Source: an uncultured Erythrobacter sp.
GTDB lineage: Bacteria; Pseudomonadota; Alphaproteobacteria; Sphingomonadales; Sphingomonadaceae
NCBI RefSeq assembly: GCF_958304185.1
Contig: NZ_OY284435.1
Coordinates: forward strand, 62,001 to 126,000
Direction of reading: 5' to 3'
DNA length: 64,000 bases
Made by a program: the position numbers and the translations under genes. The first letter of the stretch is position 1. Every line of letters begins with the position of its first letter. Positions 41,613-64,000 of this stretch are shown piece after piece. The notes below the pieces were generated by a model that was not told where the DNA came from, ran no database searches, and was given only the letters and a program-made list of their open reading frames with translations.

Positions 41613-43994
41613 ATGCTGATGCGCGATCTCGGGATCATTCCTGCACCTAAGGCGGACGGGACGGGCGATGGTCCAAGCCCCTATGTCAATCTCAGCCGCC
41701 GAGGGTTTGTGGGCGGGGCGGGGCTGTTCGTCCTAGGCGTGACGCTGGCGGGCTGTTCCAGCTATGTCGAGCCGGTCATTGATGCTGATGCGTTCAAGCT
41801 GCCGGACCCCGGCGCCAGCCCGCTTACCGGGGTGAAGGGCGGGGATGCCACCCCTTCGCTGTGGATCGCGATTGACAAAGACGGGGCGGTCAAGATCACC
41901 TGCCACCGTTCGGAGATGGGGCAGCAGACCTGGACGGCGATGGCCCAGATCGTCGCCGATGAACTTGAGGCAGACTGGGACACGGTCGCCATCGTTCAGG
42001 CCGAAGGGCATGAGCGTTACGGCGACCAGAACACCGATGGTTCGCGCTCGGTCCGGTTCAATTTCCACCGGCTGCGCGTTGCTGGCGCGGCGATGCGGCA
42101 TATGCTGGTCGCCGCCGCCGCGCTGTACTGGAAGCTGCCGCAGGACCAGTGCTCGGCCAAGGGCGGGCTGGTCAGCAATACCAAGAACGACGAGACACTG
42201 TCCTATGGCAATCTGGCCGAACTGGCCGGACGGCTCGCCATTCCGGCCGAAGCCGATATCAAGCTCAAGACCCCCAAGGAGTGGCGCTACATCCGCGAGG
42301 AAATCCCTTCGCTGACCGTGCCGCGCATCGTCAAGGGCGACAGCACGTTCGGGATCGACGTCAAGCGGCCGGGGATGGTCTATGCCGTGGTCGCCCGCCC
42401 GCCGCAGCTGTTCGGCCGGATCGGCAGCGTTGACGATACCAAGGCGCTGGCGATCCCCGGTGTGCTCAGCACCATGCGTCTGCCCGATGCCAAGCCGCCC
42501 GCGCTGTTCCAGCCATTGGGGGGAGTCGCCGTGGTCGCCCGCGACACATGGGCCGCGATCGAGGGGCGGCGCGCGCTGGAAATCGTGTGGCAGGACGGCC
42601 CTAATGCCGGTTACGATTCCGAAGCCTATGCCAAGCAGTTGCAGGCGACGGCGCGCCGCAGCGGCAAGGTGCGCCGGTCGCGCGGCGATGTCGGCGCGGC
42701 GCTGGCTACGGCAGCGAAGCGGGTGACGGCGGAATACTATGCCCCGCACCTCAATCAATCACCGATGGAGCCGCCGAGCGCGACGGCGGAGTGGGATGGC
42801 GACCGACTCGAATGCTGGGCCTGCGTGCAAGACCCGCAGAACACGCGCGACACGCTCGCCGAGGCGCTGGGGATTCCCAAGGAGAACATCAAGGTCACGC
42901 CGACCTGGTTGGGCGGTGCTTTCGGGCGCAAGTCCAAGCCCGATTTCGTAATCGAGGCTGCATTGATCGCCCGCGAAGTCGGCAAGCCGGTCAAGGTCAC
43001 CTGGACGCGCGAGGACGACATCCGCCACGGCTACTATCACTCGGTCAGTGCGCAGTATTGCGAAGCCGGGCTCGATCAGGACGGCAAATGCACCGCGTGG
43101 CTGCATCGCACGGTGTTTCCGCCGATCAGCTCGACCTTCGATAACACGGTGGCCGAGCCGAGCGATGGCGAGATGAGCATGGGCGCGACCGATGTGCCCT
43201 TTGCCGCGCCCAATCTGCGGGTCGAATCCGGCGATGCCAAAGGTCACATGCGGATCGGCTGGCTGCGCTCGGTTGCGAATATCTACCACGCCTTTGCGGT
43301 GCAGAGCTTTGCCGCTGAACTCGCCCAGGCGGCGGGGCGTGACCAGAAGGACTATCTGCTCGAGCTGATCGGTCCGCCGCGCACCATCGACCCGGAAGCG
43401 GAGGGCGCGACTTACGGCAATTACGGTGCCGAACTGGCGGAATATCCGATCGACACCGGGCGGCTGCGCAACGTGGTGGAAAAGGCGGCCGCCATGGCTG
43501 ACTGGGGCCGCAAGCTGCCCGCCGGACGCGGCTTGGGGATCGCGGTGCACCGCTCGTTCCTTTCCTACATCGCCACCGTGATCGAAGTGGCGGTTGGCAA
43601 GGATGGCACGCTCCGCATTCCGGGCGTGTGGCTGGCGGTCGATGCGGGGACCGTGATCAACCCGCGCCATGTGCGCGCGCAGATGGAAGGCGGGACGATC
43701 TACGGGTTGTCGAACGCCCTCTACGGCGCGATTACGGCCAAGGACGGTGCGGTCGTGCAGGACAACTTCCCGAGCTGGCGATTGATGCGGATGGGTGAGG
43801 CTCCGCGCGACTTCAAGGTGGAGATCATCGCTTCTGACGCGCCGCCGGGCGGGGTGGGGGAACCGGCAACACCGCCCGCCGCCCCCGCGCTCGCCAATGC
43901 GATCTTCGCTGCGACCGGCCACCGGCTGCGCACGTTACCGTTGATCGGGGCTGAGGGCGACAAGCTCAAGCTGCCCGCGACAAAGACCGTCTAG
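41613..43994 (+). CDS. Molybdenum hydroxylase large subunit (IorB-like), Tat-exported
   Basis: 793 residues from ATG 41613 (GGGGAA upstream). The N-terminus has a twin-arginine signal with a possible lipobox (LSRRGFVGGAGLFVLGVTL, then AGC). The body matches aldehyde oxidase/xanthine dehydrogenase molybdopterin-binding subunits of the isoquinoline 1-oxidoreductase type: SEMGQQTWTAMAQIVADEL, QSPMEPPSATAEW, LGGAFGRKSKPDF and the catalytic Glu in GVGEPATPP. It hydroxylates an N-heterocycle or oxidises an aldehyde. The 2Fe-2S subunit follows after 15 bp and presumably travels with it through the Tat system. Confidence 0.92.
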   Translation: MLMRDLGIIPAPKADGTGDGPSPYVNLSRRGFVGGAGLFVLGVTLAGCSSYVEPVIDADAFKLPDPGASPLTGVKGGDATPSLWIAIDKDGAVKITCHRSEMGQQTWTAMAQIVADELEADWDTVAIVQAEGHERYGDQNTDGSRSVRFNFHRLRVAGAAMRHMLVAAAALYWKLPQDQCSAKGGLVSNTKNDETLSYGNLAELAGRLAIPAEADIKLKTPKEWRYIREEIPSLTVPRIVKGDSTFGIDVKRPGMVYAVVARPPQLFGRIGSVDDTKALAIPGVLSTMRLPDAKPPALFQPLGGVAVVARDTWAAIEGRRALEIVWQDGPNAGYDSEAYAKQLQATARRSGKVRRSRGDVGAALATAAKRVTAEYYAPHLNQSPMEPPSATAEWDGDRLECWACVQDPQNTRDTLAEALGIPKENIKVTPTWLGGAFGRKSKPDFVIEAALIAREVGKPVKVTWTREDDIRHGYYHSVSAQYCEAGLDQDGKCTAWLHRTVFPPISSTFDNTVAEPSDGEMSMGATDVPFAAPNLRVESGDAKGHMRIGWLRSVANIYHAFAVQSFAAELAQAAGRDQKDYLLELIGPPRTIDPEAEGATYGNYGAELAEYPIDTGRLRNVVEKAAAMADWGRKLPAGRGLGIAVHRSFLSYIATVIEVAVGKDGTLRIPGVWLAVDAGTVINPRHVRAQMEGGTIYGLSNALYGAITAKDGAVVQDNFPSWRLMRMGEAPRDFKVEIIASDAPPGGVGEPATPPAAPALANAIFAATGHRLRTLPLIGAEGDKLKLPATKTV

Positions 43995-50849: not shown

Positions 50850-52907
50850 TTAGCCTTCCGTCTTCAGAGTGATCAGAATATTGCCCACAGCGTCCACACG
50901 CGCGGTGCAATCATGTTCGACCAGCGTGGTCGAATCCATTTCGGTGATGATCGCCGGGCCGGAGATGACATCGCCCTGCCGCAGCTTCGCGCGGTCGTAG
51001 ATCACCGCCGCGCGTTCCGCCCCGCCGATCCATACCGTGTGGTCGCGGATCTTGGCGGCGGCGGGGTTACCGTCACCCGTGGGCAGCTCGGTGGCGGGGA
51101 GGGCGGGGGCCTGCCCCTGCGCCACCGCGCGCAGGTTCACGATCTCGTGCGGGGTGTCCATGTTGAAGGTGAACAGCCGGAGGTGCTCCTCGTCAAAGCG
51201 GGCGAGGATGCCTGCGATACCGTCCTTCTCCAGCACGGCCTGCGTGATGGTTAGCGGCACTTCGAAGGCCTGCCCCGCGTAGCGCACGTCAATTTCGAAC
51301 AACGAGGCGATCTGATCTTCGGGGATGCCATCGGCCAGCAATTCGCTGCGGGTCTGCGCGGCCATTTCATCCAGCACCGCGACGAGATCGGCGATGCTGG
51401 TATCCTTGGCCAACCGCGAGAAACTGCGCGCGGTTTCAGTGCGCATCCGTGTGGTCGCATCGCCCAGCGCACACAGCACGCCGGGGGAGACGGGCGAGAT
51501 CGCGGGCCAGCTGCCCATCAGGCGGGCGACCGCGTTGACGTGAAGTGGACCCGCCCCGCCGAAGCCCATCAGCGCAAATTCGCGCGGATCGTAACCCTGC
51601 TGGACCGAGATCATCCGCAGTGCGCCGAACATATTCTCGTTGACGATATCGATGATCCCGCGCGCGGCCTCCATTAGCGTCACACCCAGCGCATCGGCGA
51701 TAGTCTGCACCGCCGCCTTCGCGCCGTCGCGGTCGAGCTTGAAACTGCCGCCGAGGAGGTCTTCGGGAAGGTAGCCGAGCACTACGTTGGCGTCGGTCAC
51801 CGTGGGCAGCGTGCCGCCCTTGTTATAGGCCACCGGCCCCGGCACCGCGCCCGCGCTCTCCGGCCCAACCCGCAGCGCTCCGGTCAATTGCGGCACGTGG
51901 GCGATCGAGCCGCCGCCTGCGCCGACGGTTTTCACATCAAGCGCCGAAGCGCGGACCGAAAGGTGGCCTACCTCGGTGGTGCGCTGGCGGCGTGGTTCAA
52001 GGCCTTGAATCAGCGCCACGTCGGTCGAGGTGCCGCCAACGTCAAGGGTGAGGATGTTCTCGAAGCCCGCATTCTTCGCCACCCACAATGCGCCAGTTAC
52101 GCCGCCCGCGGGGCCCGACATGAGGATGTTGACCGGATGCTCCTCGGCCTTCTGGCTCGACATCAACCCGCCGTCCGAGCGCAGCAGCGACAACCGGCCC
52201 TTGAAGCCCTCGGTCGCCAAGCGGTCGCGAAGGTTGGAGACGTATTTGCTCACCACCGGACGCACCGCCGCGTTGGCGACGGTGGACAGCGTGCGTTCGT
52301 ATTCCTGCATCTCGGGCAGGACTTCGTGACTCAGCGAGACGGGGATGCCGGGCAGTTCTTCCGCCGCGATCTGGCCGATCCGGGCCTCATGCGCGCCGTT
52401 GAGATAGGCGTTCATCAGCGAGACGGTCAGCGCCTCGATCCCATCACCCTTCAGCTTACGCAAGGCAGCCCGGACCGCGTCTTCATCCAGTGGGGCGACC
52501 TCGCGACCCTGTGCGTCCATCCGGCCCGGCACTTCGACCGTGTGCTCCAATCGCGCGAGCGGCTGCGGCTTGGGCCAGACGATCCACGCGGCGAGCCCTC
52601 CGGGCACGAAGCTGCGCGCGATCTGCATGATGTCGCGGTAGCCCTGCGTGGTGACGAGGCCGACGCGCGCGCCCTTGCCCTCCAGCACGGCATTGGTGGC
52701 GACAGTAGTGCCGTGAAGGAAATAGGTGATGTCCTCGGCGGTAATGCCCGCCTGCGCAAAGATCGCTTTTACGCCCGTCAGGATGCCTTCGGAGGAATCA
52801 TGCGGGGTCGACGGCGTCTTGTGCCGCCAGAACGCGCCGCTCGCCTCGTCGAACAGCAGGAGGTCGGTGAAAGTCCCGCCCACATCAACGCCCAACCTGT
52901 AAGTCAT
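50850..52907 (-). CDS. hyuA: Hydantoinase A / oxoprolinase subunit
   Basis: 685 residues of the ASKHA ATPase fold: RLGVDVGGTFTDLLLFD (phosphate loop 1), FLHGTTVATNAVLEGKGARV, ILTLDVGGTSTDVALI and FGGAGPLHVNAVA. It couples ATP cleavage to ring opening of a cyclic amide or imide with HyuB. The substrate could be a hydantoin, N-methylhydantoin, oxoproline-like lactam or imide; sequence alone does not decide. Confidence 0.94.
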   Translation of the reverse strand: MTYRLGVDVGGTFTDLLLFDEASGAFWRHKTPSTPHDSSEGILTGVKAIFAQAGITAEDITYFLHGTTVATNAVLEGKGARVGLVTTQGYRDIMQIARSFVPGGLAAWIVWPKPQPLARLEHTVEVPGRMDAQGREVAPLDEDAVRAALRKLKGDGIEALTVSLMNAYLNGAHEARIGQIAAEELPGIPVSLSHEVLPEMQEYERTLSTVANAAVRPVVSKYVSNLRDRLATEGFKGRLSLLRSDGGLMSSQKAEEHPVNILMSGPAGGVTGALWVAKNAGFENILTLDVGGTSTDVALIQGLEPRRQRTTEVGHLSVRASALDVKTVGAGGGSIAHVPQLTGALRVGPESAGAVPGPVAYNKGGTLPTVTDANVVLGYLPEDLLGGSFKLDRDGAKAAVQTIADALGVTLMEAARGIIDIVNENMFGALRMISVQQGYDPREFALMGFGGAGPLHVNAVARLMGSWPAISPVSPGVLCALGDATTRMRTETARSFSRLAKDTSIADLVAVLDEMAAQTRSELLADGIPEDQIASLFEIDVRYAGQAFEVPLTITQAVLEKDGIAGILARFDEEHLRLFTFNMDTPHEIVNLRAVAQGQAPALPATELPTGDGNPAAAKIRDHTVWIGGAERAAVIYDRAKLRQGDVISGPAIITEMDSTTLVEHDCTARVDAVGNILITLKTEG

Positions 52908-52923
52908 GCTGTGTCCTTATGCT

Positions 52924-53835
52924 CTATGCTGCGCGCGCAACGGCCGAGGGCAATTCGCGCCCCAGCACTTCCGCAAACCACTTGTTCACCGCAATCGCGG
53001 CTGCGAGATCGATGCCCGTGTCCACCCCGGAACGCGCCATCATGTAAATGAGGTCCTCCGTCGCGATGTTCCCGGTCGCGCGCGGGGCAAAGGGGCAGCC
53101 ACCAAGGCCGCCGAGCGAGGCGTCGAACACGCGCACGCCCGCCTTGTAAGCCTCCCACGCATTGGCGATGCCGGTGCCGCGCGTGTTATGGAAATGCGCG
53201 CGCATCGGGATTTTGCCGCCGAGCATCTCGCCCAGCTTGCCGAACAATTCGCCTGCCTCCCACGGCGTGCCGACCCCGATGGTGTCAGCCAGCGCGATTT
53301 CTTCGGGGTTCTCAATCGCCAGTTCCTCGGCAATGGCGAGCACCGTGTCGTGCTTCACTTCGCCCTCGAACGGGCAGCCAAAGGCGGCGCTGATGGTGAC
53401 CTGCGCGCGCATTCCTTCCGCGCGGGCGAAGCGGAGCATATCGCGGGTTTCGGCGATGCCTTCCGCAATTGTCTGGCCTTGGTTCTTCTGGCCGAAGGTG
53501 TCGCTGGCGACGATCACGCAGCCAACCTGATCGACGCCGCGCGCGCCATTCTCGCGGGTGGCCAGTGCGCGCATCACGCCGCGCTTGTTGAGGACGAGGC
53601 CGATATAGGTGCAGTCGTTGCGGTCGGGCAGGCCGGCGATCACCGCCTCTGCATCGGCCATCTGGGGCACGCGGGCAGGGTGGACGAAGCTCGCGACCTC
53701 CAGCCGCCGTGCGCCATAGCCGATCATGCGGCTGATGAGGTCGAGCTTCACTTCGGTCGAAATGATGTCGGGTTCGTTCTGAAGCCCGTCACGCGGGCCG
53801 ACCTCGACCAGTTCGATTGTGCCGAATGACATCAT
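52924..53835 (-). CDS. HMG-CoA lyase-like TIM-barrel enzyme
   Basis: 303 residues from ATG 53835 (or 53832). An upstream frame start at 53901 is rejected because it would place the GntR operator inside the gene. Features: VEVGPRDGLQNE (metal and catalytic Asp/Arg), HFHNTRGTG and the lyase signature GGLGGCPFAPRATGN with the catalytic Cys. It cleaves a 3-hydroxyacyl-CoA to acetyl-CoA plus a keto acid. It is the first gene of the leftward operon, before HyuA. Confidence 0.92.
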   Translation of the reverse strand: MMSFGTIELVEVGPRDGLQNEPDIISTEVKLDLISRMIGYGARRLEVASFVHPARVPQMADAEAVIAGLPDRNDCTYIGLVLNKRGVMRALATRENGARGVDQVGCVIVASDTFGQKNQGQTIAEGIAETRDMLRFARAEGMRAQVTISAAFGCPFEGEVKHDTVLAIAEELAIENPEEIALADTIGVGTPWEAGELFGKLGEMLGGKIPMRAHFHNTRGTGIANAWEAYKAGVRVFDASLGGLGGCPFAPRATGNIATEDLIYMMARSGVDTGIDLAAAIAVNKWFAEVLGRELPSAVARAA

Positions 53836-53884
53836 GAATCGCCTGTTGCTGCTGCGAAGGACCGGAGGGAGGTGAATTACCCTG

Positions 53885-53896
53885 TTTGTATACAAT
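53885..53896. promoter_or_regulatory. Putative GntR operator, leftward operon
   Basis: TTTGTATACAAT, containing the perfect 10-bp palindrome TTGTATACAA, about 50 bp upstream of the HMG-CoA-lyase-like start. A possible promoter (TTGCAA, 16 bp, TAATTC on the minus strand) would place the site in its spacer. The identical 12-mer recurs at 54791-54802. Confidence 0.75.
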
Positions 53897-53953
53897 TGCA
53901 ATCATGCTTGGCGTGGCAAATGATGCAGGAACCGCAACCACACGGCAGCGTTG

Positions 53954-54739
53954 TTATGTTTCGCCGCTGTCCTGATCATTGGCCGCGTCATCGGCTCTCG
54001 GGCCGACCGTCTTCGTAAAGGTGTGGAACGCGCGGCGTAGGTGACTGCCCATCACCGCGCGCGCCCAGTCGCCATCGCGCGCGGCGAAGGCGGCGACCAG
54101 CTCGTCATGATCGCGCGCGGATTGGCGCAGGTCGCTTTGCGAATAGGTGCGCGCGGTGCGCAGTACCACCGGTGCCTCGACCAGCTTTGCCAGCATCTGC
54201 CCCAGCCGCGGCGAATGGGCGGCGTCAATGATCGCTTCGTGAAACGCGCGGTTCGCCTCGAGAAAGCGGGCCACATCGGGAGGGCTCTGTTCGACGGCCG
54301 CAGTCAGTTCGCTGTTGAGTGCCTTGAGCGCGGCGATCTGCTCGCGGGACAGGCGCTTTGCCGCGCGTTTGGCGGCGTGGCATTCGAGCATCTGGCGCAG
54401 CACGAACATCTCCTCGATGTCGTCGCGGCTCCAGTCGGCGACGAACAATCGCTTGGTGTCAGAGCGGACCAGCAGCAGTTCGTCCTCAAGCCGCCGCACT
54501 GCCTCGCGCACCGGCGTGCGGCTGACGCCGGTGATCTGCGCGAGCTGGTCTTCGGTGAGCTGTTCGCCAGCCGCCACCGACCCGCTGAGAAGATGCGCGC
54601 GGATCGCCGAATAAGCGCGTTCGGAGGCGCGGCTCACGAGTGTGTGCTCCGCAGGGCGGGAAAGAAGAGGGCTGCGTCCATGCGCGTCCTTGTGCGGCCA
54701 AGCGCCCATGCCTGCAAGCCTGTGAGGTGACAAAAACAC
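53954..54739 (-). CDS. GntR-family (FadR/FCD-type) regulator
   Basis: Up to 261 residues from GTG 54739; ATG 54709 is an alternative start. The winged helix lies at about 35-105 (RAYSAIRAHLLSG, LTEDQLAQITGVSRTPVREA) and a C-terminal FCD ligand domain follows with Asp/His metal-type positions (ANRAFHEAI, ARDHDELVAAF, GSHLRRAF). FCD regulators bind organic acids. Standing between two divergent operons that share an identical operator, it probably represses both until the pathway substrate appears. Confidence 0.92.
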   Translation of the reverse strand: MFLSPHRLAGMGAWPHKDAHGRSPLLSRPAEHTLVSRASERAYSAIRAHLLSGSVAAGEQLTEDQLAQITGVSRTPVREAVRRLEDELLLVRSDTKRLFVADWSRDDIEEMFVLRQMLECHAAKRAAKRLSREQIAALKALNSELTAAVEQSPPDVARFLEANRAFHEAIIDAAHSPRLGQMLAKLVEAPVVLRTARTYSQSDLRQSARDHDELVAAFAARDGDWARAVMGSHLRRAFHTFTKTVGPRADDAANDQDSGET

Positions 54740-54790
54740 ACCTGGCAGCCGCTCTGCGTAACATTTGTGTAAAATGCTTGACGGAGGCGT

Positions 54791-54802
54791 TTTGTATACA
54801 AT
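54791..54802. promoter_or_regulatory. Putative GntR operator, rightward operon and gntR itself
   Basis: TTTGTATACAAT, identical to 53885-53896. It lies between the divergent gntR start (54739) and the racemase-fold gene start (54835), with TTGACG at 54778-54783 as a possible -35 box. Binding here could control the rightward operon and autoregulate gntR. Confidence 0.75.
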
Positions 54803-54834
54803 AACCAGCGCGCTTCAGGCAATCGGGGAATGCC

Positions 54835-55578
54835 GTGCAGCGTATTAAGGTCATCGTACCGATCGCAATGGACGAAGCAGGCGTCGCGAATCGCGCGCAG
54901 CAGCTTCCGGCTGATTTCGTGCGCCCGGGCTTCGCGCCCACATTTGAAGCGGTGCGCTGGGGCGCGGCGCTGGGCGATTCCTATCATGATACGCTGCTGA
55001 TGGACTGGACGGTGTTTCAGGCCGGTGTGACGGCCGAGGACGAAGGCTATGCCGGGGTGCTGATCGACACGGTCAGCGATAGCGGGCTGTGGCCTTTGCG
55101 GTCGGCGCTCAACATTCCCGTGGTCGGCCCCGGCGAGGCGAGCTTTGCCGCCGCCATGATGCTGGGCAAGAAGTTCTCTGTTCTCACCATGTGGCCGCAG
55201 TGGTTCCCGCTCTATGAGAAGGTGCTGAACCAGCACGGCTGGGAGCATCGCTGCGCCTCGGTCCGCTCGATCGACACGCGGCCTGACGTCACCGAACTGC
55301 TCGAAGGCAAGGAGGAGGTCGTCTTCGCCAAGCTGAAGGCTGAGGCGATGCGCGCAATCCAAGAAGATGGCGCTGACGTGATCGTGCTGGGCTCCACCAC
55401 CATGCACCAGTCGGCCACCTATCTCCAAAACGAACTGCCGGTGCCGGTGATCAACCCCGGACAGGTCGCTTACAAGCAATTGGAAACGCTGATCGAACTG
55501 GGCCTGACCCATTCGAAGAAGGCCTTTCCCGCACCCGAAGTGCCCAAGCACGCCGATATCCGAAAGGGCTGGTACTGA
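54835..55578 (+). CDS. Asp/Glu/hydantoin racemase-fold protein lacking both catalytic Cys
   Basis: 247 residues from GTG 54835 (GGGGA upstream). The fold matches the Asp/Glu/hydantoin racemase and maleate isomerase superfamily (PVVGPGEASFAAAMML, GADVIVLGS, PVPVINPGQVAYK). The two catalytic cysteines are replaced: the first position reads IDTVSDSGL (usually a Cys-Phe/Gly-Asp-Pro-Gly context) and the second VLGSTTM (usually LGC). It is therefore unlikely to be a standard two-base racemase. First gene of the rightward operon; its stop overlaps the next start (TGATG). Confidence 0.82.
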   Translation: MQRIKVIVPIAMDEAGVANRAQQLPADFVRPGFAPTFEAVRWGAALGDSYHDTLLMDWTVFQAGVTAEDEGYAGVLIDTVSDSGLWPLRSALNIPVVGPGEASFAAAMMLGKKFSVLTMWPQWFPLYEKVLNQHGWEHRCASVRSIDTRPDVTELLEGKEEVVFAKLKAEAMRAIQEDGADVIVLGSTTMHQSATYLQNELPVPVINPGQVAYKQLETLIELGLTHSKKAFPAPEVPKHADIRKGWY

Positions 55579-56009
55579 TGAGTGAATGGCAAGAGGGTGG
55601 GTCGGGCCAGACCGCGCTGCCCTATCCGGTCTATGTCGATATCGTCACCAAGCGGTATTTCGACGGAGTCGATAACAAGCACATGGACAAGGTGCTCGAT
55701 TGTTTCACGCCGGACGCGGTGCTGACCGAGGTGACCAGCAATACGGTGCACCAGGGCCGCGAGGCGATCCGGGCGATGTTCGTGAAGCTGTTCGCCGATT
55801 TCGAGAGCATCTGGCACGGCAATTTCGTCCATATCGCTGACCCTGAGACGAACGCGATCTGCTCGCAGTTCACGGTGCTGATCACCCCCAACGGGGGCGA
55901 GGAATTGCGGTATGAAAACTGCAACCGCTTCTACTTGAAGGACCGGCTGTTCCACCGCGTCTATGTCTACATGTCGGGTGACAACCTGCTGAAGGAAGGG
56001 GACGTCTGA
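55578..56009 (+). CDS. NTF2-like protein 1
   Basis: 143 residues of the SnoaL/NTF2-like fold (YFDGVDNKHMDKVLDCFTPD, HQGREAIRAMF, ending VYVYMSGDNLL). It is paralogous to the next gene, sharing the VYVYMSGxNxL end and overall layout. It overlaps both neighbours by stop-start fusion. Possible roles are dehydratase, isomerase or ring-modifying enzyme in the pathway; none can be proven from sequence. Confidence 0.78.
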   Translation: MSEWQEGGSGQTALPYPVYVDIVTKRYFDGVDNKHMDKVLDCFTPDAVLTEVTSNTVHQGREAIRAMFVKLFADFESIWHGNFVHIADPETNAICSQFTVLITPNGGEELRYENCNRFYLKDRLFHRVYVYMSGDNLLKEGDV

Positions 56010-56419
56010 TGCAGTACGAGCCCAATCTGTCGCGCGCCGAGCTGATCGACTTTGCGCTGAACAAATACTTCGCCCGCGTCGATGCCAAGGACATGGAGGG
56101 CGCGCTGGCCTGTTTCCATGACACTGCGCTGTTCTGCGTCCAGACCGCCTTTACGCGGCACGCCGGCAAGGCCGAAATCCGGCGGATGTTCGAAGATTTC
56201 TTCGGCGCTTACGAAACCATCATCCACCGCGATTTCACCTGCACTGTGGACGAGGCCAATGGCCGGATAACGGCGAGCTTCACTGCCGAGCTGCATGATG
56301 CAGCCGGGCAAGTGACGCTGCTCGAAAACACCAATTTCTGGCGGCTTCGTCCCGGCCCGGAAGGCCCGAAGTTTCAGGAAGTCTATGTCTACATGAGCGG
56401 GGCCAACGTCCTCGTTTGA
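56009..56419 (+). CDS. NTF2-like protein 2
   Basis: 136 residues, second member of the tandem pair (YFARVDAKDMEGALACFHDT, GKAEIRRMFEDFF, VYVYMSGANVLV). Its start overlaps the stop of the first (TGATG), so the two may form a heteromer. A TonB receptor follows 38 bp downstream in the same operon. Confidence 0.78.
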   Translation: MQYEPNLSRAELIDFALNKYFARVDAKDMEGALACFHDTALFCVQTAFTRHAGKAEIRRMFEDFFGAYETIIHRDFTCTVDEANGRITASFTAELHDAAGQVTLLENTNFWRLRPGPEGPKFQEVYVYMSGANVLV

Positions 56420-56457
56420 TCGCCTAACCTCTCAATCCTCTTCAGGAGAGCCGTCCC

Positions 56458-58992
56458 ATGAATGTCCGTTTGGTTCTTGCTTCTGGCGCGGCGCTCGGCG
56501 CCATTGCCCTGTCCTCGCCCGCTCTGGCGCAGGACGCCCCCGCCTCTGAACCTGCTGCCGAGGAGGAGGGCGGGATCGTCGTCACCGCTCGCCGCCAGTC
56601 GGAATCGCTTCAGGACGTCCCCGCCGCCGTCACCGTGTTCGGCGCGGAAACGCTCGCCAAGACCGGGGTGCAGCGCGCGGATGACTTCATCCAGCTGACG
56701 CCGGGCGTCACCATCGTCACCGGCACCGCCGAGGCGGGCGACACCCAGATCAACATTCGCGGCATCAACGGCGCGCGCGACGCGGAAAGCTCGGTCGCGC
56801 TGGTGGTCGATGGAATCCTAAAGACCAACACCGCGCAATTGAACCAGAACCAGGGCACCTTGCGCCAGGTCGAAATCCTGAAGGGCCCGCAAGGCGCGCT
56901 CTATGGCCGCAACGCGGCGGCGGGCGCGATTGTGCTGCAAACGCTGAAGCCCGGCGACGCGTTGGAAGGCGGGATGCTGGTGCGCGCAGCGCAGGACAAC
57001 ACCTACCTTGCCAATGGCTACATCTCGACCCCGATTGGCGACACGGCCGGGCTGGTGCTCTCGGCCAATTATTCGACCACCGATGGCTTCTTCCGCAACA
57101 GCTTCCTCGGCAATTCCAAGACGATCGACGATCAGGAAGTGTTCGGCATCGACGGGCGCTTCGTCGCGGAGCTTGGGCCGAACACCGAACTCGACGTGAA
57201 GGCGCGCTATGCCGACCTGCGCGGCGCTTCGATCAACTTCAACGCCAGCTTCCACCTGCCCAACTTCGCGGCGGTGAACCCGGCGTTCTTCGAAGATGTG
57301 AACGAACATCCCTTCGGCTTCTATTCGAACATCCGCCCGACCAATGATCAGGTGACCTTCGAAACCTCGGCCAAGGTCGAGCATGAGTTTGAAAGCACCA
57401 CGCTGACCGCATGGGTGCTTTACAGCGATGTCGACCAGTCGTTGACGGCGGACAGCACCTCGGCTGACTTTGCCCGCTTCACTTTTCCCGGCGCGACCCC
57501 GGCATCGGTGGCCGCTTCGAACGCCTGCTTTGCCAGCACGGCGGCGCTGACCGGCTTCCCGCTGAACCAGCCGACCTTTATCGGCAACAACCCGGTGCCG
57601 TTCATCTTCGACCCAGCCAATGGATCGACCTTCGGCCCTTACAGCCCGACCACCTGCGACGGCACCCAGTTCCAAGTGCGCAAGCAGGAAGACATCAGCG
57701 GCGAAATCCGGCTCGCCTCGAACGGCGACGGGGCGATCAACTGGCAGGTCGGCGCCTATTACCTCCACATCGACCGCGAGGTCGGGGTGAGCCTTGGGGC
57801 GGACCTTGGCCGCGGCATCATCCGCGAGCTGTATAACGCGCCGGGATCGGACAACCCGACCACCCAGCTTTACCACGATGCGTTCAAGACCGATGTCTAT
57901 GCGGCCTTCGCGTCGATCGATGCCGATGTGTCCGATCGCTTCAACGTTAGCTTTGCGGGCCGTTACGATATCGAGGACCGTCAGGTGTCGAGCCTCGTTC
58001 CGGCCGTGTTCGATCCGATCACGGGCGGGCCGATCAACCCCGGCCAGACCGTCGTTGGCGGCGCGGTTCAGCCGATTGCGCCGAAATCGGCGACCTTCAA
58101 GCAGTTCCAGCCGAAGATCTCGCTGCGGTATGAGCTGACTGACGACATCAACCTCTACGGCAACTGGGGGGTCGGCTTCAAATCAGGCGGGTTCAACAAT
58201 CAAGGCTCGGCCGCGATCGTCGATTCTGCGTTCAACGATTTCATCGGCACCAACGTTCTGATCGACGACCAGTATCGCAAGGAAGTCTCCAGCGCGTTTG
58301 AAGCGGGGATGAAGGGCACGCTGCTGGACGGCGCGGTGACCTTCGATCTGGCGGGCTACTACACCAAGGTCGAAGACATGCAGTTCTTCGAATTCTTCGT
58401 CGGCGGCTTCGGCCTGCTGCGCGTCGTATCGAACATCGACGAGGTCGAATTGTACGGCGCCGAGCTCAACCTGTCGGCGGAAATCCTTGATGGCTGGACA
58501 GTGTTCGGTTCGGCCAACGTGACCGAAAGCGAAATCCTCGAAAACGCCTCGCGTCCGGTGACGGTGGGCAACAAGTCGCCCTATACCGCCGATTACACCC
58601 TGAACTTCGGCACCCAGCTTGATCTGCCGGTTACCGACAGCGTCAACTTTGTTACCCGCGCGGATTACCGCATCACTGGGCCGACGTGGTTCCACACGTT
58701 GCAAGATGATCCCAACCCGACATTGTTCAGCGGCCTGCTGCCGGGTTCGGCGCTGGCGCTGCCGGCCTTCGTGGGTGATGCCGATTATTCGATCTCGCAG
58801 CGCGATACCTTCGGGGTGATGGACCTGCGCGTTGGGGTAGAAGGCGATAGCTGGTCGTTGACCGCCTATGCCGAAAACCTGTTCAACGAGAAGTATCTGA
58901 ACGAGGTCATCACCGCGGTCGAATTCGGCGGATCGTTCATCTCGCCGGGTGCGCGTCAGCGCTTCGGGGTGGAGTTCGGCTACAAGTTCTAG
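56458..58992 (+). CDS. TonB-dependent receptor of the catabolic island
   Basis: 844 residues: signal peptide (LSSPALAQ, about 25), short TonB-box region (GGIVVTARRQ), plug (about 50-165; DFIQLTPGVTI, QVEILKGPQGALYGRNAAAG) and barrel ending FGVEFGYKF. The barrel ending in Phe is typical. Its place behind the racemase-fold and NTF2-like genes under the GntR operator suggests it imports the pathway substrate or a precursor too large for porins. Confidence 0.92.
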   Translation: MNVRLVLASGAALGAIALSSPALAQDAPASEPAAEEEGGIVVTARRQSESLQDVPAAVTVFGAETLAKTGVQRADDFIQLTPGVTIVTGTAEAGDTQINIRGINGARDAESSVALVVDGILKTNTAQLNQNQGTLRQVEILKGPQGALYGRNAAAGAIVLQTLKPGDALEGGMLVRAAQDNTYLANGYISTPIGDTAGLVLSANYSTTDGFFRNSFLGNSKTIDDQEVFGIDGRFVAELGPNTELDVKARYADLRGASINFNASFHLPNFAAVNPAFFEDVNEHPFGFYSNIRPTNDQVTFETSAKVEHEFESTTLTAWVLYSDVDQSLTADSTSADFARFTFPGATPASVAASNACFASTAALTGFPLNQPTFIGNNPVPFIFDPANGSTFGPYSPTTCDGTQFQVRKQEDISGEIRLASNGDGAINWQVGAYYLHIDREVGVSLGADLGRGIIRELYNAPGSDNPTTQLYHDAFKTDVYAAFASIDADVSDRFNVSFAGRYDIEDRQVSSLVPAVFDPITGGPINPGQTVVGGAVQPIAPKSATFKQFQPKISLRYELTDDINLYGNWGVGFKSGGFNNQGSAAIVDSAFNDFIGTNVLIDDQYRKEVSSAFEAGMKGTLLDGAVTFDLAGYYTKVEDMQFFEFFVGGFGLLRVVSNIDEVELYGAELNLSAEILDGWTVFGSANVTESEILENASRPVTVGNKSPYTADYTLNFGTQLDLPVTDSVNFVTRADYRITGPTWFHTLQDDPNPTLFSGLLPGSALALPAFVGDADYSISQRDTFGVMDLRVGVEGDSWSLTAYAENLFNEKYLNEVITAVEFGGSFISPGARQRFGVEFGYKF

Positions 58993-59076: not shown

Positions 59077-60084
59077 TCAGGGCGCGGGCGTTGCCGTTGC
59101 CGTTGCAGGGGCCGCAGGCGCGCTCCACCACGACAGGGTCTGGTTGTCATGGGCTGATGTCCACACGCCCTTGGGTGTCCAGCGCAGTGCGCCGCTGCCC
59201 ACCGCATCGCCCATCCGCGCGCGGATCTTGAGCGTGACCGGATCGATCACCACCATCGTCTGTTCGTCCGTGGTGCGCAGCCACACCGCGCCGCCATTGG
59301 CGTCGATATCACCCCACTTCAGGTTATCGCCCACCTTGGTGCGGCCCGCAATTTTGAGGCTGGTCGGATCGACCTTGGCGACCGTGCCATCGCCCTGTTC
59401 CTGCACCCACACCGCGCCTTCGCCCGCTGCGAGGAAGCCCGGTGTGTCGCCCAGCGCGGCTGATCCGGTGACGGCATTGGTAGCCGGATCAACCCGTTCC
59501 AGCACCTTGCCTTCGTTCGACACCGCCCAGACCGCATCGAAGCCATAAGCCAGATACCAGGTTTCAGGCGTGACGGTGACGGTGGCGACAATCGCGTTGG
59601 TGGCCGGGTCGATCCGCGCCAGCTTGCCGTCCGGATCGCTCGGCACCCAGACAGAGCCTGCGCCCGCGATCACATTGGTTTCGCCCTTGGGATTGGCGAG
59701 GCCGGTGGCGATCTTGGCTTCGACTGCGGCGGTCTTCAGGTTGATGCGCCACAGCTCACCGTCCTCGCAATTAGCGACCCACAGCGATCCCGCCGCAATT
59801 GCCATCGTGCCGCAGGGGCGGGGGACAGGCGTGCTGGCGAGCTTGCCCGCAGGCGACCATTGTTCGACCCGTCCGTCATTTGTGACCCACACCGTATCGC
59901 CATCCACCGCGAGGAAATCGGCAAAGCCCGGCACTTTCAGCGCGGTTTCGGTGAGGTCGGGCGCGGGGCCGACCATTTCCGTGGGAGGTTCGCTTTCCTC
60001 AGCCGCACACGCCGCGACAGCAAGGCTGGCGGCAAGGGCGAGAGCAAGCGGGCGGGCAGCGGAATTGCGCATCATGGGTGTCAT
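59077..60084 (-). CDS. Beta-propeller lipoprotein (YncE/Vgb-like)
   Basis: 335 residues from ATG 60084 (GGAGG upstream). A lipoprotein signal ends LAVAAC. The rest consists of about six blades with repeats like VWVTNDGRVEQWSP, LWVANCEDGELWRI, VWVPSDPDGKLARIDPATN and VWVQEQGDGTVAKVDP, the YVTN/Vgb-type beta-propeller. It could bind a ligand or act as a lyase or quinoprotein-like enzyme; no catalytic site is obvious. It is divergent from the ABC operon, with one TATTAC/GTAATA operator in between. Confidence 0.8.
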   Translation of the reverse strand: MTPMMRNSAARPLALALAASLAVAACAAEESEPPTEMVGPAPDLTETALKVPGFADFLAVDGDTVWVTNDGRVEQWSPAGKLASTPVPRPCGTMAIAAGSLWVANCEDGELWRINLKTAAVEAKIATGLANPKGETNVIAGAGSVWVPSDPDGKLARIDPATNAIVATVTVTPETWYLAYGFDAVWAVSNEGKVLERVDPATNAVTGSAALGDTPGFLAAGEGAVWVQEQGDGTVAKVDPTSLKIAGRTKVGDNLKWGDIDANGGAVWLRTTDEQTMVVIDPVTLKIRARMGDAVGSGALRWTPKGVWTSAHDNQTLSWWSAPAAPATATATPAP

Positions 60085-60170: not shown

Positions 60171-60196
60171 TATTACTTTTGCAATCAATCGTAATA
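60171..60196. promoter_or_regulatory. TATTAC-N14-GTAATA palindrome, putative operator 1
   Basis: Six-bp arms TATTAC and GTAATA separated by 14 bp, between the divergent beta-propeller gene (start 60084) and the ABC transporter operon (start 60260). The same arms and spacing occur before the NikR-like gene at 62929-62954. NikR operators have the same style (two 6-bp arms about 16 bp apart). Confidence 0.72.
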
Positions 60197-60259
60197 ATTC
60201 CCCATAGACAAATGCAGCAAACGAGGGGATGTTCGCACCCGCAACATAGGGGACGAATC

Positions 60260-61345
60260 ATGCGCCACTTGGCCCGCCGCGCGGCCCGCTTCCTGCTTAT
60301 CGCACTCGCCCTTGCGGTGGCCGCCTGTTCGGGCAGCGAGGAGGACGCATCCGCACCCCGCACCGACTTCAACATCGGCTGGTCGATCTATGCCGGGTGG
60401 ATGCCCTGGCCCTATGCCCAGCAGGCCGGGATCGTGAAGAAGTGGGAAGACAAGTACGGGGTCAAAATCACCTTCGTGCAGGTCAACGACTACATCGAGA
60501 GCGTGAACCAATACACCGCTGGCAAGCTGGACGGCGTGACTGTCGCCAACATGGACGCTTTGACCATCCCGGCGGCGGGCGGCAAGGACACCTCGGCGAT
60601 TATCCTTGGCGATTATTCCAATGGCAATGATGCGGTTCTGCTGAAAGGCGCGGACGGCGTGGCGGGGATCAAGGGGCGGCAGGTGTATCTGGCCGAACTG
60701 TCCGTCTCGCACTACCTGCTCGCCCGCGCGCTGGAGACGTCAGGCATGAAGCTCGCCGACGTGAAGACGGTCAACACCTCCGACGCCGATATCGCCGCCG
60801 CCTTTGCCTCGCCCGATGTGACGGCTGCCGTGGCGTGGAACCCGCAGGTGACCACCATGAAGGGTGTCGCAGGCACGAAGGCCGTGTTCACTTCGGCCGA
60901 TATTCCGGGCGAGATTCTCGATCTGATGGTGGTCGATACGGCGGTGCTGAAGGCCAACCCCAATCTCGGCAAGGCGTTGGCGGGGATCTGGTACGAAACA
61001 ATGTCGCTGATGGCCCGGCAGGATGCTGAAGGCGCCGCCGCGCGCGCGGCGATGGCGAAGCTGGCGGGGACCACGCCGGAGGAGTTCGAAGGCCAGCTCG
61101 CCACCACCTTCCTCTACGCCGATCCCAAGGCCGCGCTGATGGCAATGGCCTCGCCCGATCTGGTCACCACCATGACCCGCGTGCGCGACTTCAGCTTTGC
61201 CCAAGGCTTGTTCGGACAGGGCGCCCGTTCGGCTGACGCGGTCGGGATGGAGTTCCCGGGCGGCACAACCTTGGGTGACAAGGCCGCGATCACCTTGCGC
61301 TTCGATCCGACCTACATGCAGCTCGCCGCCGACGGGAAGCTCTAA
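60260..61345 (+). CDS. ABC transporter substrate-binding lipoprotein (urea-carboxylase-region type)
   Basis: 361 residues from ATG 60260 (AGGGGA upstream). The lipoprotein signal ends AVAAC. The body matches NitT/TauT-like binding proteins of the kind found with urea/guanidine carboxylase genes: FNIGWSIYAGWMPWPYAQQ, YGVKITFVQVNDYIESVNQY, GVTVANMDALTIPAAGGKD. It captures the substrate in the periplasm for the permease and ATPase encoded next. The DUF1989 gene in the same operon points to guanidine or urea. Confidence 0.85.
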   Translation: MRHLARRAARFLLIALALAVAACSGSEEDASAPRTDFNIGWSIYAGWMPWPYAQQAGIVKKWEDKYGVKITFVQVNDYIESVNQYTAGKLDGVTVANMDALTIPAAGGKDTSAIILGDYSNGNDAVLLKGADGVAGIKGRQVYLAELSVSHYLLARALETSGMKLADVKTVNTSDADIAAAFASPDVTAAVAWNPQVTTMKGVAGTKAVFTSADIPGEILDLMVVDTAVLKANPNLGKALAGIWYETMSLMARQDAEGAAARAAMAKLAGTTPEEFEGQLATTFLYADPKAALMAMASPDLVTTMTRVRDFSFAQGLFGQGARSADAVGMEFPGGTTLGDKAAITLRFDPTYMQLAADGKL

Positions 61346-61349
61346 GCCG

Positions 61350-62165
61350 ATGCGCTGGGTGACAGCCCAGCCGGGGCGAGGCCGAGCGATCCTGCTGGGC
61401 GCGCTGCCGCTGGTGGTGCTGGCCTTCGCCTACATCATCGCCGCCGCCGCGCGTCATTCCGATAACGCAGCGGACAAGATCCTGCCGCTGCCCGGAGCGA
61501 TGGCTACGGCAATGGCGGCGCTGATCTTCGAAGCCGATCCGCTGTCTGGCCAATATCTGTTCTGGGCCGATACGCTTGCCAGTCTGACGCGGTTGGGGTT
61601 GGGGCTGGGTATAGCGACGTTGTCGGCGCTTTGTGTCGGCCTTGTCGTCGGGTCATTGCCCCCGGTTAGAGCCACGTTAGGCCCGCTTGTCACCGCGATT
61701 GCCGTTATCCCGCCCATCGCGTTGCTGCCGATACTGTTCATTGTGTTCGGATTGGGCGAGACGGCCAAAGTGGCGCTGATCGTCATCGGGGTCGCCCCGT
61801 TCATGATCCGCGATGTGGCCGGACACATCGCCGCTCTACCGCGCGAGCAGGTGATCAAGGCATTGACTTTGGGAGCGAATTCGTGGGGGGTGATGCTGCG
61901 GGTGGCTTTGCCGCAAGCGATGCCGCGGCTGATCGAGGCGCTCCGCCTGTCGCTCGGCCCGGCTTGGGTGTTCCTGATCTCCGCCGAGGCGATCGCCGCC
62001 GATATCGGGCTGGGCTACCGCATCTTCCTCGTCCGCCGCTACCTCGCGATGGACGTGATCCTGCCCTACGTCGCATGGATCGCGATCCTTGCCGTGGTGA
62101 TGGATTTCGCCCTGTCGCGCGGCAGCCGCCGCCTGTTTGGCTGGGCGCATGGGGCCGCGCATTGA
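61350..62165 (+). CDS. ABC transporter permease (NitT/TauT type)
   Basis: 271 residues from ATG 61350, 4 bp after the binding-protein stop. About six membrane helices, with the EAA-loop contact site for the ATPase near KALTLGANSWGVMLRVALPQ. It forms the membrane channel with the neighbouring ATPase, whose start overlaps its stop (TGATG). Confidence 0.9.
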   Translation: MRWVTAQPGRGRAILLGALPLVVLAFAYIIAAAARHSDNAADKILPLPGAMATAMAALIFEADPLSGQYLFWADTLASLTRLGLGLGIATLSALCVGLVVGSLPPVRATLGPLVTAIAVIPPIALLPILFIVFGLGETAKVALIVIGVAPFMIRDVAGHIAALPREQVIKALTLGANSWGVMLRVALPQAMPRLIEALRLSLGPAWVFLISAEAIAADIGLGYRIFLVRRYLAMDVILPYVAWIAILAVVMDFALSRGSRRLFGWAHGAAH

Positions 62166-62959
62166 TGGCGTTGCTGAGCCTCAAGAACCTGTGGGTCGAG
62201 TATGGCGAAAAGGTCGTACTCGAACGGATTTCGCTCGATATTGCCGAGGGATCCTTCGTCTCGATCATCGGGCCATCAGGCGCGGGCAAGAGCAGCCTGC
62301 TGCGGGTGGTGCTGGGGCAGGAGAAGCCGACGCGAGGGACGATCACCTTGGACGGCGCACCGCTGCCGCCAGAATGCGGGCCGGATCGCGGGGTGGTGTT
62401 TCAGCGTTACTCGGTGTTCCCGCATTTAACTGTGCTGGGTAACACTCTGCTGGGGCTAGAATTTTCCGCCTCACCGTTAACCGCCCGTCTGTTCGGTAGC
62501 GCCCGGCGGGCTGCGGTGGCGGAGGCTGAGGGGATGCTGGAATCGGTCGGGCTGGCCGATAGCCGCCACCTCTACCCAGCGCAGATGTCGGGCGGGATGC
62601 AGCAGCGCCTCGCCATCGCCCAAGCCCTGATCAAGCGGCCCCGCATCCTGTTGCTGGACGAGCCTTTCGGCGCGCTCGATCCCGGCATTCGCAAGGATAT
62701 GCACGCGCTCATCACCCGGCTGTGGCGTGAGCATGGGCTGACGATCATCATGGTAACGCACGACATCAAAGAGGCTTTTTCGCTCGGCACACGCGTGCTG
62801 ACGCTCGACAAGCGCCGCCACGATCCGCACGCCCCGCAGCGCTATGGTGCGGCGGTCATCTATGACCTCGAACTGACCCGCAAGCACGCCGTCCAAGCCG
62901 CGGTGGAAGTGGCGGCCTTGGCTGACGGTATTACGATTGACACAGTTGGTAATAATTGA
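62165..62959 (+). CDS. ABC transporter ATPase (NitT/TauT type)
   Basis: 264 residues with Walker A (GPSGAGKSSLLRV), Q-loop (VFQRYSVFPHL), ABC signature (SGGMQQRLAIAQAL), Walker B (ILLLDEPFGALD) and the switch His (MVTHD). It powers uptake by the preceding components. The last codons overlap operator 2 of the NikR-like regulator. Confidence 0.94.
   Translation: MALLSLKNLWVEYGEKVVLERISLDIAEGSFVSIIGPSGAGKSSLLRVVLGQEKPTRGTITLDGAPLPPECGPDRGVVFQRYSVFPHLTVLGNTLLGLEFSASPLTARLFGSARRAAVAEAEGMLESVGLADSRHLYPAQMSGGMQQRLAIAQALIKRPRILLLDEPFGALDPGIRKDMHALITRLWREHGLTIIMVTHDIKEAFSLGTRVLTLDKRRHDPHAPQRYGAAVIYDLELTRKHAVQAAVEVAALADGITIDTVGNN
62929..62954. promoter_or_regulatory. TATTAC-N14-GTAATA palindrome, putative operator 2
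   Basis: Arms and 14-bp spacing identical to 60171-60196, and both sites continue with ATT after GTAATA. It overlaps the end of the ATPase gene and lies 17 bp before the start of the NikR-like gene, suggesting an internal autoregulated promoter. Confidence 0.72.
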
Positions 62960-62971
62960 AATGATCGCTGC

Positions 62972-63451
62972 ATGAGCTCCCCCGAACCCTCCCGCCTCGC
63001 GCGCCTCAGCATGAGCCTGCCGGCGGAACTGTTCCGTCAGCTCGACATGATGGTCGAGGAACGCGGACTGCCCTCGCGCTCGCAGCTGATCGCCGAATTG
63101 ATCCGCCACGCGCTGGCCGAGCATGAGGCGCTGACCCGACCGGACGAGACGCTCGCGGGGACTGTCACCATTGTCTATGCTGGAGGCGGTGGCAGGGTTC
63201 GTCAGCAACTGGCTGAAACGCAAGTGGATTACCTCAAGGAGGTGATTTCCTCGCAGCACGTGTTCCTTGAAGAGGACCAGTCGCTCGAAGTGCTGCTGGT
63301 GCAGGGGCCTGCGGTGCGGCTGAAGCAGCTGTGCGATGCCTTGCGCGCGATCCGGGGCGTGCAGCAATTGCAGCTCGTCACCACCACCGCGCTGCTGCCG
63401 CCGCTGCATGAACAGGACTTTCCGCCTGCGCGGCAGGAGGCTGCCGAATGA
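62972..63451 (+). CDS. NikR-like ribbon-helix-helix regulator, nickel site mostly missing
   Basis: 159 residues. The N-terminal ribbon-helix-helix (LARLSMSLPAELFRQLDMMV, RGLPSRSQLIAELIRHAL) and the C-terminal ACT-like domain (GTVTIVY, ISSQHVFLEEDQSLEVLLVQG) match the NikR layout. Of the E. coli NikR nickel ligands (His76, His87, His89, Cys95), only the His in SSQH is evident; the others appear lost and the loop is shorter. It may sense another ligand such as guanidine or a nitrogen signal. Its stop overlaps the DUF1989 start (ATGA). Confidence 0.82.
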   Translation: MSSPEPSRLARLSMSLPAELFRQLDMMVEERGLPSRSQLIAELIRHALAEHEALTRPDETLAGTVTIVYAGGGGRVRQQLAETQVDYLKEVISSQHVFLEEDQSLEVLLVQGPAVRLKQLCDALRAIRGVQQLQLVTTTALLPPLHEQDFPPARQEAAE

Positions 63452-64000
63452 GCGGGACTGCCGATCCCAAGGCCGCGCGCGATCATGCCCGCGCGCAAGG
63501 CGGCACGCGGGTCGAAGCGATGCCGACCTTGCCGCCTGTCGCGGGCGACCTGCCCGAAGGCGTGGCCGCCGACGACTTGCTGTGGGAAGAAACCATAGCG
63601 CCGGGCGGATATGCCTCCCGCCGGATCGCGCGCGGCACCCGGTTGCGGCTGATCGACAAGGCGGGCGATGCCTGCGCGAGCGTCAATATCTTCAACGCCG
63701 AAATGCCGACCGAGCGGCTGAACGTCGCCGATACCGTCAAGGTGCAGTGGAGCGCCTATCTCGGCGCGGGCAAGCTGTTGCTCAGCGACATGGGCCGGGT
63801 GCTAATGAGCATCCTCGAAGACGACGCTGGCACGCACGACACTTTCTGCGGCGTCTCAACTGCCGCCAGCAACCTGCGGAAATATGGTGAGGGCCGTAAC
63901 TCCGGCGCTTACCCTAATGGGCGCGACCGGCTGATCCTCGGCGCGGCCAAGCACGGTCTGACCCGGCGCGACGTCCACCCTTGCGTGAACCTGTTCAAGG
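63448..64000 (+). CDS. DUF1989 / urea-amidolyase-associated protein (carboxyguanidine deiminase-like subunit), 3' part missing
   Basis: The visible 184 residues start at ATG 63448 (GGAGG upstream, ATGA overlap) and run off the window. The family pattern is clear: ETIAPGGYASRRIARGTRLRL, GDACASVNIFNAEM, KLLLSDMGRVLMSI, DTFCGVST and HPCVNLFK, with the conserved Cys residues. DUF1989 pairs (UAAP1/UAAP2, CgdA/CgdB) deiminate carboxyguanidine in guanidine breakdown beside a biotin carboxylase and allophanate hydrolase, which are expected just to the right of this window. Confidence 0.88.
   Translation, partial: MSGTADPKAARDHARAQGGTRVEAMPTLPPVAGDLPEGVAADDLLWEETIAPGGYASRRIARGTRLRLIDKAGDACASVNIFNAEMPTERLNVADTVKVQWSAYLGAGKLLLSDMGRVLMSILEDDAGTHDTFCGVSTAASNLRKYGEGRNSGAYPNGRDRLILGAAKHGLTRRDVHPCVNLFK

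Follow-up and report, generated by a model that had tools for sequence, protein, structure and literature searches.

A NikR-family regulator without the nickel site, and its conserved putative operators, at a probable guanidine-use operon of an uncultured Erythrobacter

In a 64,000-nucleotide stretch of DNA from an uncultured Erythrobacter sp. (contig NZ_OY284435.1, positions 62,001 to 126,000; hereafter the window), two identical palindromes of the form TATTAC-N14-GTAATA lie upstream of an ABC transporter operon and of a gene within it for a NikR-like ribbon-helix-helix regulator. Comparing sequences, we judge it reasonably probable that this regulator is a metal-free derivative of NikR that represses a guanidine-use operon and its own gene in place of a riboswitch, with a guanidine-type compound as inducer. 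A sequence-only reading of the window had anticipated much of this: the conserved regulon, the NikR-like regulator and the guanidine-type operon were borne out, and the replacement of a riboswitch by a protein fits the distribution found, whereas nickel as the signal was not supported. The features concerned, in window coordinates, are as follows.

59077..60084, minus strand: divergent beta-propeller protein (PROP), possible regulon member (family searches and arrangement in relatives)
60171..60196, no strand: operator 1, TATTAC-N14-GTAATA, between the divergent beta-propeller gene and the ABC operon (pattern scan; relatives)
60260..61345, plus strand: substrate-binding protein (SBP) of the ABC importer (NCBIfam TIGR03427 (ABC_peri_uca), 1e-156, over cut-off)
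61350..62165, plus strand: ABC permease (Pfam BPD_transp_1, 3.3e-19)
62165..62959, plus strand: ABC ATPase, stop codon at 62957-62959 (Pfam ABC_tran, 2e-33)
62929..62954, no strand: operator 2, arms and spacer as in operator 1, inside the 3' end of the ATPase gene and upstream of the regulator gene (pattern scan; relatives; third-codon-position GC content, GC3)
62937..62942, plus strand: TTGACA between the arms of operator 2, putative −35 element (sequence; phase in relatives)
62972..63451, plus strand: NikR-like ribbon-helix-helix regulator (REG), with V76, H87, F89 and S95 in E. coli NikR numbering (Pfam, NCBIfam, alignment)
63448..64000, plus strand: DUF1989 protein UAAP1, extending to 64269 beyond the window (Pfam, NCBIfam)

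Operator conservation and regulon membership

A pattern scan confirmed both palindromes at 60171-60196 and 62929-62954, their 6-bp arms perfect and 14 bp apart. With up to two mismatches the window holds three matches, against a mean of 0.12 and a maximum of 1 in 100 dinucleotide shuffles; the third (43419-43444, two mismatches) is probably a chance match. Across the whole host genome (3,288,895 bases, 3.29 Mb; nearest named relatives Erythrobacter/Porphyrobacter) the two palindromes are the sole exact copies, where 0.011 would be expected from base composition, and no copy with one mismatch occurs. The two-mismatch background of the genome is ordinary, at 12 matches per strand in all versus 33 for a reversed control pattern.

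Conservation was followed in two sets of relatives, whose loci and genomes are designated L### and G### (L035 is the host's own locus). Among the 150 relatives of the first set the regulator occurred in 34, from which 35 neighbourhoods were taken, one genome having two copies. A site with at most one mismatch precedes the SBP gene in all 31 loci that hold this gene, and a site with at most two mismatches precedes the regulator in 32 of 34 loci with upstream sequence (none in L056 and L061; L069 begins inside the regulator gene and so falls outside the 34). The second set, the best 80 of 249 relatives in a named genome collection, is biased to close relatives and overlaps the first in species; by record titles, all but one of its members are Sphingomonadales. 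Across these 80 loci (1.42 Mb), spacer 14 gave 147 exact copies and 226 with at most one mismatch; the 20 other spacers (4 to 24) gave no exact copy and 0 to 7 with at most one mismatch, and six control arm pairs had no exact copy. The other-spacer and control-arm counts rule out a chance origin, and the arms prove conserved in related loci, as a check proposed in the sequence-only reading required.

Within the 80 loci, all 78 scorable SBP upstream regions carry an exact operator. For the regulator copy inside the operon, or the sole copy, 72 of 80 loci have a site with at most one mismatch upstream; 19 of the 80 have another regulator copy at the head of the operon, 14 of them with a site before it. 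Almost all sites with at most one mismatch (224 of 226) precede genes of the cluster, namely those for REG, SBP, a fatty-acid-hydroxylase-family protein (FAH), a TonB receptor (TBDR), PROP or a metallo-beta-lactamase-fold protein (MBL2), a site being assigned to a gene when it lies at most 400 bases from a plus-strand start or 600 bases from a minus-strand start. When gene order differs between loci, the sites follow the transcription units. The suspected membership of the beta-propeller is plausible: its gene is divergent at 24 SBP sites, and where it has another location (L130 and L134) it is preceded by two sites per locus. Conserved operators serving one regulon, which had been predicted to unite the transporter, regulator and DUF1989 genes, are therefore well supported by sequence comparison.

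Because operator 2 lies inside the ATPase gene, its conservation might reflect the encoded protein. Across the 72 of 81 loci with a site near the end of this gene, GC3 is 0.28 inside the operator (514 codons) versus 0.82 in the rest of the gene (17,418 codons), and since third-position GC is so much lower inside the site, we rejected protein-coding constraint as the cause.

Relatives also carry further sites before FAH and TonB receptor genes (L130 at 17524 and 17607, L129 at 14322, L108 at 2806, L133 at 5825), and in relatives two metallo-beta-lactamase-fold genes join the divergent unit. Because of these extra targets, the real substrate may be a larger guanidino compound. One operon, in L143, sits on a contig labelled Candidatus Poribacteria and encodes a regulator 85% identical to the host's; the label is probably misassigned.

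The regulator and the operator arms

The NikR-like character noted at the outset is upheld by an N-terminal RHH_1 domain (3.9e-06) and a C-terminal NikR_C domain (5.5e-20), both over Pfam cut-offs, and the regulator is the sole NikR_C match in the host genome. Its best solved relative, similar across nearly the whole length, is 2bj1 (4.8e-25), which we take to be the archaeal NikR from P. horikoshii. Scores against the NCBIfam NikR models fall under their cut-offs (98.7 versus 105, 63.6 versus 83 and 59.4 versus 175.45 bits), as do those against two subfamily models.

PMC7055735 gives the nickel ligands of NikR as His87, His89 and Cys95, together with His76 of the neighbouring subunit. We compared these positions in 130 distinct sequences (174 before duplicate removal). 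The regulator's group, 108 of the 130, reads x-His-Phe/Val-Ser at 76/87/89/95, where x is A, V, S, T, G, Q, L or I and never His; 19 carry all four ligands (His-His-His-Cys) and three are intermediate (Arg/Tyr-His-His-Thr). Not one of the 108 has the nickel-ligand set, H76, H89 and C95 all being missing, and His87 is present in all 130. Most group members have Phe at 89 and Tyr at 78, with conserved acidic residues close by. As three of the four ligands are gone in every group member, nickel sensing by the regulator appears unlikely on sequence grounds, and we rejected nickel as the likely signal.

In a quick tree of 61 sequences built with the ligand columns excluded, a branch with support 100 sets the 42 x-H-F/V-S rows apart from all others, and another with support 95 does so for the 16 His-His-His-Cys rows. 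Because this tree is unrooted and has several long branches we only infer descent from a nickel sensor; the ancestor of the regulator was probably a nickel-sensing NikR. The regulator shares domain order, the NikR_C match and long two-arm operators of about 26-28 bp with the NikR proteins of E. coli, H. pylori and P. horikoshii, but it lacks three of the four nickel ligands, its target is a nitrogen-compound operon rather than nickel uptake, and its logic is probably inverted, with an inducer instead of a co-repressor. We class it as a NikR-family derivative rather than a NikR because the domains and operator style are present and the nickel ligands are not. Urease was considered as a nickel link; the one Urease_alpha match (8.3e-7, 30.7 bits, cut-off 23; positions 47-103 of 121, in a 618-residue frame) is read as another amidohydrolase.

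In L106 (9001-9441 and 12359-12808) and 18 other loci the operon holds two regulator paralogues, and in several loci the internal paralogue has Val, not Phe, at position 89.

The arm-spacer-arm design, ascribed early on to the NikR style, does resemble the NikR boxes that PMC545781 describes: GTGTTAC-[N13/14]-GTAACAC in delta-proteobacteria and GTATGAT-[N13/14]-ATCATAC in enterobacteria. In G133, a genome of a different family, each of the two regulator genes has next to it GTGTTAC-N14-GTAACAC, identical to the delta-proteobacterial box as given there. We then set arms against recognition strands in 28 regulators (strand R-x-[ST]-x-[ST]). Where the third strand place is Thr (n = 18), a GTATGA-type dyad with at most two mismatches occurs in 8 (L162, L164, L170, L173, L175, L178, L182, L183) and is missing in 10; where it is Ser (n = 8), a GTRTTAC dyad occurs in 4 (L159, L165, L166, L168) and in none of L160, L167, L169 and L171. 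Both G133 copies (strand R-L-G-V-S) have the GTRTTAC dyad. Because just two bases separate the two patterns, L170 and L036, whose sites are perfect, also match the opposite pattern at two mismatches; L037 has an additional two-mismatch match 4.2 kb away, and crossing is seen at no locus besides these. Recognition-strand residues contact DNA bases, and arm sequence and strand tend to co-vary in this comparison, consistent with a NikR-family reader.

The three intermediate regulators (L186, L191, L192) are the nearest relatives outside the group in our sample. Like the group they lack ligands, two of the four, and L186 has GTATTAC-N14-GTACTAC between regulator and SBP. Unlike the group they retain His89, and they neighbour creatininase-like and glutamine-synthetase-like genes (labels from reading the sequence, without family search), with an ABC importer in L186 and L191. 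Upstream in L192 lies the dyad GTATGA-N16-TCATAC, like the enterobacterial NikR box.

Guanidine pathway and riboswitch distribution

On the contig the operon reads, all on the plus strand, SBP, permease, ATPase, regulator, UAAP1, UAAP2, biotin carboxylase and allophanate hydrolase, the last three lying past the window end (locus L035). UAAP1 and UAAP2 are both DUF1989 proteins; UAAP2 and the allophanate hydrolase are labelled from sequence and place, without family search. The carboxylase (1194 residues) has AVDFTGD where K. lactis urea carboxylase has AINFTGD, that is, Asp for Asn at residue 1330 of 5i8i, presumably the substrate-specificity position. A review assigns Asp to guanidine carboxylases and Asn to urea carboxylases (PMC12186494). 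The motif was recovered in 112 of 115 loci, with Asp in all 112. Ten more operons included eight whose genomes have a guanidine-I match close to the operon; all 8 have Asp, as does G577, and G431 gave no motif match. The operon thus probably encodes guanidine breakdown, as its Asp-type carboxylase indicates and as the guanidine-type label first given to it implied.

A guanidine carboxylase operon under guanidine riboswitch control is described for Vreelandella boliviensis (PMC12508155). Such riboswitch-controlled operons resemble the present one in UAAP1 and the carboxylase Asp (the 8 of 8 above) and, in the 10 loci that yielded an SBP, in the type of that protein (51-58% identity); they differ in being controlled by RNA, whereas here we found no riboswitch but a protein and its operators. 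No Rfam match reached gathering scores in the window, eight related loci including L035 gave nothing but a tRNA, and a permissive scan of L035 6000-11200 returned three matches, all far under gathering scores; on these scans we rejected a hidden riboswitch at the locus. Between operator 1 and the start codon of SBP the leader has 63 bases, fewer than the 107 positions of the guanidine-I model. Among the 150 relatives, guanidine-I gave no match over cut-off and two under it, both of another family.

The guanidine-I scans of over 40 genomes used stricter filters and scored part of the candidates (23 of 58 and 9 of 58 in the host genome). Searches for guanidine-II and guanidine-III covered five genomes, that for guanidine-II leaving out G619, G392, G799 and G803; in the host genome they gave no guanidine-II match (150 of 575 candidates scored) and no guanidine-III match (150 of 727 scored). 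The lack of a riboswitch noted at first sight thus holds at the locus and in the genome for family searches that scored part of the candidates.

In the first set of 150 relatives, the 34 genomes with the regulator are also the 34 with UAAP1 over cut-off. Of 398 genomes sampled from the phylum, 42 had UAAP1, our operon marker, over cut-off, and 34 of these had guanidine-I over cut-off. Six of the eight UAAP1 genomes without guanidine-I have an x-H-F-S regulator (G000, G619, G392, G799, G803, G768), and G431 has an Arg-His-His-Thr regulator together with a guanidine-II riboswitch directly before UAAP1. None of the 34 guanidine-I/UAAP1 genomes has an x-H-F-S regulator. Any match to the regulator profile occurs in six of them: four are His-His-His-Cys (G191, G525, G533, G571), G817 is Arg-His-His-Thr, its regulator gene and its riboswitch operon lying on different contigs, and the match in G833 is weak (1.2e-8, ligand residues unread) beside the 7e-74 or better reached by every x-H-F-S member of the sample. 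This distribution, opposite to that of guanidine-I riboswitches, supports the earlier suggestion that the regulator may stand in for the riboswitch, and it suggests that the two share the same signal.

Proposed repression and its rivals

We propose that the regulator would bind as a tetramer, one ribbon-helix-helix dimer sitting on each 6-bp arm with about two helical turns between them, and that it would block RNA polymerase and so repress both the guanidine import and breakdown operon and the regulator gene itself. The arms at the regulator promoter lie on either side of the TTGACA −35-like element, and TTGAC recurs in fixed phase (TATTAC-N2-TTGAC-N7-GTAATA) in 130 of 226 sites, oriented toward the assigned gene in 129 of the 130; a repressor covering the −35 element fits this phase and orientation. 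Sixteen bases past the −35 hexamer, TAnnnT hexamers are frequent among the 130 (TACCGT 27, TAGCGT 10, TAGCCT 7, TACCTT 6), and other frequent hexamers at the same place, AGAGGA (8) and AGATGG (6), do not fit a −10. At the SBP sites, most of which lack TTGAC, the −10 may be AATAAT, overlapping the right arm. An ancestral NikR would have lost its nickel pocket, which may since have been put to use for an organic signal; guanidine itself, a close derivative or an intermediate is the likeliest candidate, and its binding would relieve repression.

More tentatively, we consider it quite possible that the regulator is a guanidine-binding transcription factor whose nickel pocket, with the prevalent Phe89 and Tyr78 and the nearby acidic residues, turned into an organic-cation pocket, whose logic was inverted, and which replaced the guanidine-I riboswitch in Sphingomonadales. 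A 2025 review knows of no guanidine-responsive transcription factor, and our literature search, over titles and abstract openings in a library without most subscription papers, found no protein regulator of guanidine genes and no metal-free NikR of this kind. If true, no regulatory protein before it would have been a guanidine sensor, and it would be a rare case in which a transcription factor takes the place of a riboswitch at operons of one kind. The locus offers a concrete, directly testable candidate with defined operators and a natural comparison of RNA and protein control of one operon type, and it shows how a relative of a metal sensor can be without the metal site yet remain in use.

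Several observations weigh against repression by this regulator in response to guanidine. No site was found before the operon-internal or only regulator copy in 8 of 80 loci, nor before the leading copy in 5 of 19. TTGAC is missing from its phase in 96 of 226 sites, mainly SBP promoters, and no clear −10 was seen at the regulator promoters, so repression is less well argued at such promoters. The L167 regulator locus has no good dyad across its 3.4 kb, and the outgroup loci L169/L191 have none. G577 (L226) has UAAP1 and an Asp-type carboxylase with no guanidine-I, -II or -III match and no such regulator. Finally, the ligand could be a broader nitrogen signal, because the Arg/Tyr-His-His-Thr outgroup regulators adjoin ABC, creatininase-like and glutamine-synthetase-like genes.

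This last point leads to the main rival, which we regard as unlikely: with the same operators and regulator, nitrogen status would be sensed, an amino acid such as glutamine binding the ACT-like C-terminal domain as co-repressor when nitrogen is plentiful. NikR binds DNA when nickel-bound, and its C-terminal domain resembles ACT domains; the rival would keep this logic, with the ligand-bound form on DNA, and would suit the glutamine-synthetase-like neighbours of the outgroup regulators, two of three of which also adjoin an ABC importer. However, the distribution opposite to guanidine-sensing guanidine-I riboswitches points to guanidine as the shared signal, and among the 150 relatives the regulator is confined to genomes with the operon marker.

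It is very improbable that the protein is a true NikR whose altered ligands let it respond to nickel or a different metal, which would tie guanidine use to metal supply: the invariant His87 and clear NikR_C match would fit, but positions 76, 89 and 95 are never His, His and Cys in the 108 group members, the protein stays below cut-off for each of the five NikR-type NCBIfam models that it matches, and we know of no nickel-dependent step in the guanidine pathway. That the palindromes serve another regulator, the NikR-like protein being a mere passenger of the operon, is likewise very improbable, for although its binding to the operators is argued from sequence comparison, it is the sole NikR_C match in the host, the arms resemble known NikR boxes, with the G133 box by both its regulator genes, and arms and recognition strand tend to co-vary.

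The neighbouring part of the window (50850-58992) encodes a protein similar to caprolactamase/acetophenone carboxylase subunits, which scores under cut-off, as well as a member of the Asp/Glu racemase family, a regulator of the GntR type and a TonB receptor; these genes may form a further cluster devoted to small nitrogen compounds.

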